Positions 61,983 through 64,000 of a DNA stretch of 64,000 bases are shown here, in pieces (positions within the stretch are counted from its first letter, which is position 1; each line of letters starts with the position of its first letter). A program made the translations under genes and the position numbers. This DNA is from Bacteroidaceae bacterium (GTDB taxonomy: Bacteria; Bacteroidota; Bacteroidia; Bacteroidales; Bacteroidaceae). The DNA lies in assembly GCA_024398475.1 (NCBI GenBank), contig JAKSJB010000011.1, positions 1-64,000 on the forward strand, written 5' to 3'. The notes beneath the pieces were generated by a model that saw nothing but the letters and a program-made list of their open reading frames with translations, was not told the origin of the DNA and ran no database searches.

Positions 61983-62773
61983 AGGCAAACTAATAAAATC
62001 CTTTATCATAATAACGCACTCAGATACTATTTATTGTCTATTGCGTAAAAAAATCTATGACGTTTCATGTCGGTTCCTTAATAATATGCCTTTCCTCTGC
62101 ATTCAATCAATGTCCTGGCAGGTTCAGCATCGTCTTGCTGCCGCTTTTTGAAAGAATGTATTCGAGGTTGGGACAATTTTGTATATTGTTTTATATCTGC
62201 GTTTTATGCATTAAAAGGTAGAAAAGTGATGATGGGAGTTTTTCAGAATTCTGGAAAAATTGAAGATTTAACATTTTTAACTATATCTTAACAACGAAAT
62301 GATAGGCAAAAGTGGCATTTTGGAGGATGTGATGGTGGTTTAGTGTCGAGCCATGCAAGGGAAGTCAAAATGAGCGGCAATGCTATTACACCTATTTATT
62401 ATATACAGAGACTTATTAGGCGTTTGGTGTGGTGGTTGAAATCTGCGTATTACCTCAAGTCGCATAGTATGTTAAGGGGAAGGTGGCTACATTTGGCGGT
62501 CATTCCATTGCTTTTACTACATCTGACTATTGTCTGCTCACTAAATCAGCCTCTGACTGCATTTTGGAGGATAATTGCGGATTTTAGACTATAAAGGAAG
62601 AGTAGAAAGTCTTGGTTAATTCTGGCGCTTAAAAATAGGAGTATAATTTCAAATTAGCAAAGAAAAATGCAATAAAAAACTATTTCGAGAGTGATTTTAA
62701 GCGTTTTTTTAATAAAAAAAGACAATTCGACCGAAAAAAATGATTTTTTCTTGATTTTTTGAAAATAAATGTA
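61983..62773. other. Gene-poor, AT-rich 790-base interval
   Basis: No convincing gene on either strand. It contains a 14-base exact direct repeat GCATTTTGGAGGAT at 62315-62328 and 62559-62572, 244 bases apart, and A/T homopolymer runs toward the right end (62655-62770). It separates housekeeping genes from the peptide locus and may mark the edge of acquired DNA. Confidence 0.5.
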
Positions 62774-62781
62774 TACCTTTG
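62774..62781 (+). promoter_or_regulatory. -7 promoter element of the putative RiPP locus
   Basis: TACCTTTG matches TAnnTTTG. The leader to the first ATG is about 125 bases and carries the structured segment at 62789-62836. Confidence 0.6.
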
Positions 62782-62788
62782 TGAAGTC

Positions 62789-62836
62789 GTGTCTATGTTG
62801 TGTCATCCGAAAAGGATGCACAGATGGGCGAGACAC
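62789..62836 (+). promoter_or_regulatory. Structured 5' leader of the putative RiPP locus
   Basis: GTGTCT (62789-62794) can pair with AGACAC (62831-62836), enclosing a second stem TGTG-T-CATCC / GGATG-CACA with a GAAAA loop. The pairing is visible by eye. Whether it is a regulatory RNA is inference; no known riboswitch was recognised. Confidence 0.45.
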
Positions 62837-62912
62837 TACATAATGCAAAAGCGTCATCGATGCTTTGTCTATTGGTTAATTGAAACCTGAGAAATTTCAA
62901 AAAGAGAAATCA

Positions 62913-63185
62913 ATGACAATGTCAGAAGTGAATGCTACGGGTATGGATTCGCTGTATCCCGGGGTGTGTATTGAGGATTTGATCCTCATGCACACTTTCC
63001 CTGGAGGTACGTGTAAATACCGGGCGTGGGCAGACACTCTACTCGTCAATTTCTCAGGCAATCTCAGGGCCTCAATTAACGGACGAGAAGAAGTGGAAGC
63101 CCACGCCGATTGTATTATTGTAGGCAACAATTTGTCAAACTTAATTGCCTTATTGGGTTTCTATAGGCTATTTAATAGAGAATGA
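62913..63185 (+). CDS. Small protein of unknown function, first gene of the peptide locus
   Basis: A 90-residue protein (88 if the second ATG at 62919 is used) with no signal peptide and three cysteines (PGVCIEDL, GGTCKYRAW, HADCIIVGN). The C-terminus, CIIVGNNLSNLIALLGFYRLF, is hydrophobic. I do not recognise the family. Its stop overlaps the next ATG (ATGA, 63182-63185), so the two small proteins are made together, and both precede the putative peptide precursor. It could be a regulator, immunity protein or maturation helper; the sequence does not decide. Confidence 0.6.
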   Translation: MTMSEVNATGMDSLYPGVCIEDLILMHTFPGGTCKYRAWADTLLVNFSGNLRASINGREEVEAHADCIIVGNNLSNLIALLGFYRLFNRE

Positions 63186-63430
63186 AACATTATAATATAG
63201 TTGCCATAGAAATTACAAACGAAGGAAAGGTACCTGAGTTAAAACACCTAACTGTAAGTGGATTGGATATAGTTCACCAATCTCAAAACGAGATTGCCGA
63301 AATGGCACTTGCTGCAGTTAATAATGTTTCTGGAACAAAGGAAGTTAAGTTTGTGGCAGAGCTTTCCGAGGAAGACTTCAACAGATATTTCCACAATCAG
63401 TTAAAGGACTACATCAATTCAACGAATTGA
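63182..63430 (+). CDS. Small protein of unknown function, second gene of the peptide locus
   Basis: An 82-residue acidic protein, cysteine-free, predicted alpha/beta: a strand MKHYNIVAIEIT, a helix around NEIAEMALAAVNNV, a strand VKFVAELS and a helix EDFNRYFHNQLKDYI. No known motif. Its ATG overlaps the stop of the 90-residue gene by four bases. It lies 99 bases before the putative precursor gene on the same strand. A protein-protein interaction role is possible. Confidence 0.6.
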   Translation: MKHYNIVAIEITNEGKVPELKHLTVSGLDIVHQSQNEIAEMALAAVNNVSGTKEVKFVAELSEEDFNRYFHNQLKDYINSTN

Positions 63431-63440
63431 CTATACACAG

Positions 63441-63503
63441 AGAATGCAGATTCGCTGCAAAGGATGTATGCAAAGAGAAAGTCGATTCGCTTGATAGGAT
63501 GTA
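63441..63503 (+). repeat. Two 28-base imperfect direct repeats before the precursor gene
   Basis: Copy 1 at 63441-63468 and copy 2 at 63476-63503 agree at 22 of 28 positions; the shared cores are GATTCGCT and AGGATGTA. The spacing of 35 bases is compatible with paired protein-binding sites or a local duplication. Confidence 0.5.
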
Positions 63504-63529
63504 GACATAACCCTCTAATACTAATCATT

Positions 63530-63667
63530 ATGAAGAAGTATCAGAAAGCAAAGATGGTTGCTAAGAACCTTGCATCTGGCTCTTATGCTGCAGGTTGTCC
63601 AGCTGAGGAACGTGGCTGGGAAAACACCGGCAAATATAGCTGCATCAATTGCGAGCGTACCAAGTAA
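63530..63667 (+). CDS. Putative RiPP precursor peptide (45 aa, three Cys)
   Basis: The start ATG at 63530 gives a peptide beginning MKKYQKAKMVAKN, a Lys-rich helical leader, then ASGSYAAGCPAEERGWENTG and KYSCINCERTK. Cysteines are at 23, 38 and 41. The basic leader followed by a Gly/Ser-rich hinge and a short Cys-containing C-terminus is what a ribosomally made, post-translationally modified peptide precursor looks like. The next gene begins with a PqqD-like recognition domain, which binds such leaders. A longer frame from 63464 runs through the direct repeats and is not preferred. The modification is unknown; thioether or other Cys-centred crosslinks are plausible. Confidence 0.65.
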   Translation: MKKYQKAKMVAKNLASGSYAAGCPAEERGWENTGKYSCINCERTK

Positions 63668-63683
63668 ACTGTCAAAAAATCAT

Positions 63684-63723
63684 GGGGGGTGGAAAGGAAC
63701 TGTACTTTTCTTTCCCCCCCCCC
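63684..63723 (+). terminator. Strong hairpin with a ten-C tract after the precursor gene
   Basis: GGGGGGTGGAAAGGAA (63684-63699) can pair with TTTTCTTTCCCCCCCCCC (63706-63723), with a few G-U pairs and bulges. No T run follows, so it is more likely a partial terminator or RNA-stabilising hairpin that would keep precursor mRNA above that of the downstream enzyme. Confidence 0.6.
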
Positions 63724-63740
63724 TCTATTTCAAATAGACC

Positions 63741-64000
63741 ATGTTAGTAAAACAAAGTAAGAATACTTTTATCAGAACAACCGATCATTATGGCTATGTT
63801 ACTAATCAACTTACTCGTCATGATAGAACTTATGACGAGTCGGGAGCAGATTGGTTGAAAGAAATAAACAGAGAACCTCAAGAAATTGATGATATTGTGG
63901 CTCGCCTTGTCACTCTCTACGAGGATGCAGATCCTGAGATAATTAAATGTGACTTTATAGAATTTATTGAGAGTCTTGCTAAAGACAAATTCATTGTTAC
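63741..64000 (+). CDS. Partial protein with N-terminal PqqD-like RiPP recognition element
   Basis: The ATG at 63741 opens a frame that runs off the right edge after 86 codons. The start MLVKQSKNTFIRTTDHYGYV, then DESGADWLKEINREPQEIDD, DIVARLVTLYEDADPEI and the closing CDFIEFIESLAKDKFIV reproduce the PqqD pattern: a strand pair, an ESGADWLK-type helix, EIxxxL, a DxxxxxxD helix and a final FxxxLxxxxFI helix. In Bacteroidota this domain is commonly the N-terminus of radical SAM/SPASM peptide maturases, or stands alone. The rest of the gene lies outside the window, so the enzyme type is inferred. Confidence 0.7.
   Translation, partial: MLVKQSKNTFIRTTDHYGYVTNQLTRHDRTYDESGADWLKEINREPQEIDDIVARLVTLYEDADPEIIKCDFIEFIESLAKDKFIV

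Follow-up and report, generated by a model that had tools for sequence, protein, structure and literature searches.

The window analyzed here is the whole 64,000-nt stretch from position 1 to 64000 of contig C3 (genome G000), which ends at base 65264. Its right-hand end carries a promoter, a structured leader, a small gene (gene2), a short repeated element, a gene for a 45-aa peptide, and the start of a larger gene (Table 1); the sequence and the list of open reading frames place all features named in the initial annotation on the plus strand. That annotation had taken the region for the left end of a RiPP biosynthetic locus. The proposed peptide, with three Cys and the C-terminal end CINCERTK, is encoded there, and the suspected PqqD-like protein start matched Pfam PF05402 with 30.2 bits (full protein, 26.7 bits; cut-off, 23.4). 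The sequence to the right of the window (to base 65264) is just enough to complete this last gene, and it supplied the radical SAM and SPASM domains that were to be looked for in that direction. The 86-residue PqqD-like start forms the N-terminus of the complete maturase, which contains PqqD, Radical_SAM, and SPASM domains, all above Pfam cut-offs, and in which the CxxxCxxC and SPASM cysteines are invariant. The contig ends 60 bases after the maturase stop codon.

Table 1. Features at the right-hand end of the window and, in the last row, an additional enzyme of sister loci
Feature	Position	Strand	Basis or remark
Promoter -7 box TATACCTTTG	62772..62781	+	Sequence; Bacteroidetes TAnnTTTG type; transcript start expected at ~62785
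Structured leader RNA, ~340 nt, pseudoknotted	62785..63125	+	70-79% identical copies; covariation on 34 copies; partner permutations
RNA core used in covariance models R2 and R3	62832..62963	+	142.4 bits with R2
Helix A 5' arm (TTAATTGA-aa-CCTGAGA)	62876..62892	+	Partner 63062-63079; z 12.4, 39 copies
Helix A 3' arm (TCTCAGG-gcc-TCAATTAA)	63062..63079	+	Partner 62876-62892; z 12.4, 39 copies
Helix B 5' arm GAGAAAT	62904..62910	+	Partner 63049-63055 (ATTTCTC); z 13.9, 37 copies
Terminator-like hairpin H7/H8 (GGCGTGGGC...GCCCACGCC)	63023..63107	+	H7 z 7.0; two-sided changes
Start-codon-proximal hairpin with GGGTTTC (63155-63161)	63147..63168	+	z 7.2, 37 copies
gene2, 82 aa, first coding gene of the operon	63182..63430	+	ORF
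Short intercistronic element GATTCGCTnnnnAGGATGTA..., two copies, ahead of precursor	63446..63509	+	Similar elements in most sister loci
RiPP precursor, 45 aa, GSYAAGC and C-terminal CxxCE	63530..63667	+	17-sequence alignment; 17 other loci
PqqD/RRE-radical SAM-SPASM maturase, 487 aa	63741..64000, onward to contig base 65204	+	Pfam domains; cut by window end
Second radical SAM enzyme (four sister RiPP loci)	L030:8159-9466; L034:5239-6303; L036:8675-9988; L067:9923-11254

Precursor and maturase searches found a peptide of 40 to 55 aa adjoining the orthologous maturase in 17 of 17 other Bacteroidales loci, as anticipated for conserved peptides of the SYAAGCP type. In an alignment of 17 precursors, the motif GSYAAGC is invariant, with a Lys-rich N-terminal half before it and a variable linker after it, and C-x-x-C-[ED] is usual near the C-terminal end. 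One locus (L065) encodes two precursors, both 3' of its maturase. With a maturase present and the peptide frame conserved in relatives, the reading of the region as a RiPP locus largely stands. The system is patchily distributed: within the family, 10 of the 399 genomes sampled have it, and sampling of 393 genomes at the order level added 1; members were set apart from noise by a clear gap in E values (~1e-15 or better versus ~2e-3). The precursor reached the cut-off of no NCBIfam model and constitutes a family new to NCBIfam, while the 25 best NCBIfam families for the maturase were all far under their cut-offs (top score of 140 bits versus a 500-bit cut-off). Neither protein matches a curated family, in agreement with the earlier failure to name one for the peptide, and the string SYAAGC was not found in a literature search.

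The usual gene order in sister loci is variable small genes, precursor, maturase, and amidohydrolase. In the host genome, contig C11 encodes a 248-aa amidohydrolase from base 138 that is 63% identical to the amidohydrolase of the sister operon L034, and C11 is therefore probably the continuation of the operon on C3 across the contig break. An amidohydrolase is present in 14 of the 16 loci with enough sequence, the exceptions being two divergent loci (L068 and L070), and its metal-site pattern (HxH-K-H-H-D) is complete. Four loci encode a second radical SAM enzyme, 30 to 36% identical, which perhaps adds another modification. An exporter had been expected nearby. No dedicated exporter or leader peptidase was recognized within ±5 kb of the sister loci inspected, and the recurring extra gene is instead the amidohydrolase. 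Neither an exporter nor a leader peptidase is required in every RiPP system.

RRE-guided radical modification is the default expectation for radical SAM RiPP maturases. The PqqD/RRE domain of the maturase would bind the 45-aa precursor at its conserved N-terminal half, and the radical SAM/SPASM domain would then modify the GSYAAGC...CxxC region, most likely by Cys-based crosslinking of the thioether type. The three conserved Cys make thioether crosslinks of the sactipeptide or ranthipeptide type possible. The metal-dependent amidohydrolase may trim or hydrolyze the product. Because this enzyme is the partner and no exporter is found, a small-molecule product is also possible. On that alternative, the peptide would be a scaffold that the amidohydrolase cuts to release a small molecule or cofactor, as in PQQ or mycofactocin synthesis, and would not be a crosslinked peptide. 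The active-site-complete amidohydrolase is the most constant partner, GSYAAGC is invariant in otherwise variable peptides, and the nearest solved relatives of the maturase include PqqE, all of which speak for a scaffold together with the lack of an exporter. Against it, conservation of CxxC[ED] at the C-terminal end, past a variable linker, suggests that the whole peptide matters, and L068 and L070 do without the amidohydrolase. We regard the scaffold as a serious but doubtful alternative to the crosslinked peptide.

The maturase shares its N-terminal PqqD/RRE domain, its radical SAM and SPASM domains, and the usual cysteines with maturases of the SkfB, PqqE, AlbA, and PapB types. SkfB (6efn) and PqqE (6c8v), both distant, are its nearest solved structures by sequence and the only ones matched at E values up to 1e-10. 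Unlike those types, it has no NCBIfam equivalog at cut-off, its precursor family is new, and its partner is an amidohydrolase. Mycofactocin and PQQ systems likewise have a PqqD-type domain, a radical SAM/SPASM enzyme, and a small precursor, and the mycofactocin system has a hydrolase partner, but the window maturase is far under their family cut-offs and the precursor is unrelated. Radical SAM RiPP clusters of the Bacteroidales have been mined with BAGEL4, and radical SAM enzymes are the commonest RiPP enzymes there (PMC10352776). Those clusters combine GG-motif precursors with peptidase-containing ABC transporters, whereas no such transporter was found at window-type loci, which belong to the same order; amidohydrolase and TatD are absent from the main text of that paper. 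As a RiPP system, the locus belongs to a known kind but represents a new family, unusual in having an amidohydrolase as partner.

A short intercistronic element lies just ahead of the precursor in most sister RiPP loci, with the sequence GCCGAATCGCTTGAAAGGAAGTAGGC or GCCGAAAATCCT..AGAGTAGGC. In addition to the window, it occurs in L004 (9959-10048, minus strand), L007, L030, L032, L033, and L034, and in a variant form in L031, L036, L037, and L038. The element may serve as a signal for translation or processing. A pattern search in four genomes gave no match to it, the pattern being too strict for a conclusion. Three tandem elements were also seen within another operon of the host genome headed by the leader RNA, on contig C34.

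Two overlapping small genes had been annotated between the leader and the precursor. The second is the 82-aa frame of gene2, but the first (gene 1, 62919-63185) is not a protein gene. Compared with any one of 16 related copies, its frame carries 14 to 21 indels of a length not divisible by three. Substitutions show no preference for any codon position, and 12 of the 16 copies have in-frame stops. When genes 1 and 2 were joined in a translated search, the matches to gene 1 elsewhere contained many stops and shifted from frame to frame. DNA similarity of 70 to 79% covers the annotated structured leader and gene 1 as a single piece. Gene 1 is the 3' part of the structured leader RNA and is noncoding. 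The claim of a structured leader itself was borne out by a stability beyond that of its shuffles (z of -3.7), except that the RNA extends through the first small gene. A conserved RNA can evidently be annotated as small genes, and gene 1 serves as a warning.

Gene2 matched no NCBIfam model, and none of its Pfam matches exceeded the cut-off; a search of 379 family genomes gave no relative, and gene2 had no match of its own beyond the host genome. An apparent 42% match to a protein of L035 was an artefact of a mixed alignment, and a single-sequence structure model (pLDDT of 59) was too poor for use. Similarity to the Pfam Piwi profile was below threshold (E of 0.003, 17.3 bits versus a 28.9-bit cut-off) and is probably due to chance. 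Both small frames lie on the right strand for partners in RiPP maturation, but gene 1 is RNA, no relative of either occurs in other RiPP loci, and the genes at those positions vary by locus. We therefore consider a role for two small proteins in maturation extremely improbable.

One common fold emerged from alignments that included 14 to 39 leader RNA copies. The 5' side of this fold comprises a hairpin, a closing helix P1 (CTACATAA/TTATGTAG), hairpin H2, helix C, and a GGG/CCC helix; 3' of these follow a GUGUGC/GCACAC hairpin and then the long-range helix A, as in GCTATCTGA-aa-TAACCACA pairing with TGTGGTTAgccTCAGATAGC, with helix B inside it. The loop of the outer hairpin H7/H8 contains the 3' arms of helices A and B, which makes the fold a pseudoknot. 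In a MAFFT alignment of 34 copies that had been fitted to no structure, 46 of 80 pairs showed two-sided changes (H7, 7 of 10 pairs; H8, 6 of 10 pairs). The covariation score of these copies was 0.311, versus 0.185 ± 0.006 when shuffled (0 of 500) and at most 0.197 in slid controls, and permutation of partners between copies gave z values of 12.4 (A), 13.9 (B), 7.0 (H7), and 4.1 (P1), with the limit that shuffle and permutation controls ignore shared ancestry. One helix alone exists in the compensatory versions CCTGAGAAA, CGTAGGAAA, CTTCCACA, TTACCACAG, and CTTCGCA, each with its complement, a variety that would be hard to explain otherwise than by conserved pairing. On this covariation, the leader and gene 1 region is read as one structured noncoding RNA. 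An earlier reading of the TGAAA/TTTCA stem as a kissing loop was replaced by the longer helix A, and model R1, an RNAalifold fold of the core, was set aside since the obvious hairpin H2 was absent from it.

Two further pairings are mutually exclusive with H7. Its 3' arm can pair with a GGGTNTC element just ahead of the start codon (z of 7.2; in the window GGGTTTC, which is complementary to this arm), and its 5' arm can pair with a strand of the 5' hairpin (z of 5.1). By analogy, this four-segment layout resembles that of classical attenuators.

The promoter claimed in the initial annotation is a Bacteroidetes-type -7 box, and it recurs with the RNA: a TAnnTTTG box lies 37 to 101 nt ahead of the core in 48 of 58 RNA copies, versus a background of ~10%. 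The distance to the downstream same-strand start codon peaks at 213 to 232 nt after the core. The RNA is thus arranged as a cis-regulatory leader, with a promoter upstream and a same-strand gene downstream at a constrained distance. Phase variation by promoter inversion was considered and rejected, as there are no flanking inverted repeats except two short promoter-like matches. After H7, most copies have a U-run. T-runs of at least four occur in the post-H7 interval of 54 of 58 copies, yet also in 38% of random stretches, and the window copy has none; at 63107-63115, the U-run found in most relatives has been lost (GCCCACGCCGATTG). Since it lacks this run, the window copy may be unable to terminate after H7, and termination there is doubtful.

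The promoter of its own, the terminator-like hairpin, and the T-run in many copies would also suit an independent small RNA that acts in trans, ends at the U-run following H7, and has the next gene only as a neighbor. Such an RNA would not account for a same-strand start codon at near-constant distance, for the covarying element and the P1 3' arm that both lie beyond the U-run, or for several copies per genome that each precede a different operon, and we consider it quite improbable. Instead, the RNA is tied to the downstream message by its position and orientation, by the constrained spacing, and by covarying elements that flank the U-run on either side.

We consider it likely that the locus has two layers, a RiPP operon placed behind a cis-acting, attenuator-like leader RNA. 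The first layer is seen in gene content, conservation, and intact active-site motifs, and the second in a fold established by covariation and in promoter motif, orientation, spacing, and distribution. The operon would be transcribed from the promoter at ~62772 through the pseudoknotted leader of ~340 nt. The arms of H7 would exchange partners, the 5' arm with the 5' hairpin strand and the 3' arm with the start-codon-proximal element, to form a switch over read-through or translation, of which the switching itself, its direction, and its signal are inferred. Because transcription reaches the U-run before the start-proximal element, that element is unable on its own to block termination. The most economical mechanism is an attenuator-like exchange between H7 and the alternative partners of its arms, with processive antitermination and a translation switch as close rivals. 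The RNA resembles riboswitches and attenuators in its compact helix-closed domain, its terminator-like hairpin with alternative partners, and its conserved distance to the start codon; it differs in a U-run that is not universal and in a very mixed regulon that points to no ligand in particular.

EAR and JUMPstart act in polysaccharide operons, and the window-type RNA is several times larger than EAR. Both are listed as structured leader RNAs (PMC2864571). Like EAR (epsC, RF01735) and JUMPstart (RF01707), the window-type RNA is a structured RNA in the leaders of surface-polysaccharide and other accessory operons; it differs in being pseudoknotted, in occurring only in Bacteroidales, and in also preceding restriction systems and RiPPs. 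It might similarly be a processive-antitermination leader that renders RNA polymerase resistant to the later terminators of long accessory operons, without local attenuation. The operons headed by it include capsule, surface-protein, and restriction operons, and some are long, as would suit such a role. Some downstream units are short, however, the alternative pairings of H7 would not be needed, and neither RF01735 nor RF01707 gave a sequence-structure match to the leader RNA. We consider processive antitermination unlikely and retain attenuator-like switching as the preferred mechanism.

With model R2, the RNA was found in 99 of 201 genomes of the family, in up to 9 copies each, a count that extends to E values of 0.01 and includes weak matches that need care. 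With model R3, it was found in 10 of 129 genomes at the order level, the host genome included, and in 0 of 74 genomes outside the order; in both R2 and R3, the inner three pairs of H4 are wrong. The host genome has three copies, of which those at C7:22043-22172 and C34:33675-33802 (both minus strand) head other operons. Two sister loci of the window's RiPP operon (L034 and L035) are headed by the RNA as well; no copy was found in the remaining RiPP loci searched, in some of which the available upstream sequence is short. Among the 127 proteins whose genes come directly after the RNA, Pfam recognized 9 cytosine-C5 methyltransferases, 3 matches to restriction enzymes (two LlaJI-type and one HpaII-type), 6 BspA-type LRR proteins, and also CsgG/LpoB-like proteins, acyltransferases, and capsule-type enzymes; defence models agreed with Pfam. 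Because the same leader heads many unrelated accessory operons, we conclude that it is a shared regulatory module and not a part of the RiPP system.

The same leader ahead of unrelated gene sets and its patchy occurrence could also mean that the conserved block serves chiefly for recombination, as a cassette of promoter plus leader through which accessory operons are exchanged, with the RNA fold secondary. Extensive compensatory change in many helices indicates selection on the folded RNA, though, and neither flanking repeats nor an association with recombinases was seen, which makes a cassette element highly improbable. A viral or plasmid origin was considered and rejected: no match at the blastn level was found in phage or plasmid collections, and of the IMG/VR contigs that share a 21-mer with the RNA, only one fits the RNA model, cut at its edge.

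No Rfam 15 family matched the leader RNA at the gathering threshold, and even permissive settings gave only sub-threshold, chance-type matches. Four candidate structured RNAs of the Bacteroidetes, Bacteroidales-1, Bacteroid-trp, Bacteroides-1, and 6S-flavo, are all in Rfam (PMC2864571), and none of their models matches it. Searches of openly licensed papers found no description of it. Rfam thus lacks a large RNA, well supported by compensatory changes, that roughly half of the sampled genomes in a major gut and rumen family carry. We give roughly even weight to the proposal that it is a new Bacteroidales-specific class of large pseudoknotted leader RNA that gives accessory operons a common switch, either on/off or for timing, set by some signal or trans factor. 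If so, one kind of RNA control would extend over restriction-modification systems, genes for capsules and surface proteins, and a new family of RiPPs. How these bacteria deal with phages, hosts, and rivals depends on the genes behind the leader, whose control is poorly understood.

Two other kinds of RNA-headed operon were observed. At L174:1739-4900, the RNA precedes a different RiPP-like operon, which encodes two Cys-rich repeat peptides (CSGxCSGx type) together with two radical-SAM-like enzymes. Similar proteins (MNAADVISWEM... or MNVIRCDEPEYLVWKW...) are encoded in the RNA-headed operons L140, L147, and L158 of three genomes, the host included; their genes lie ~2 kb behind the RNA, and in L158 the gene is the first of the operon.
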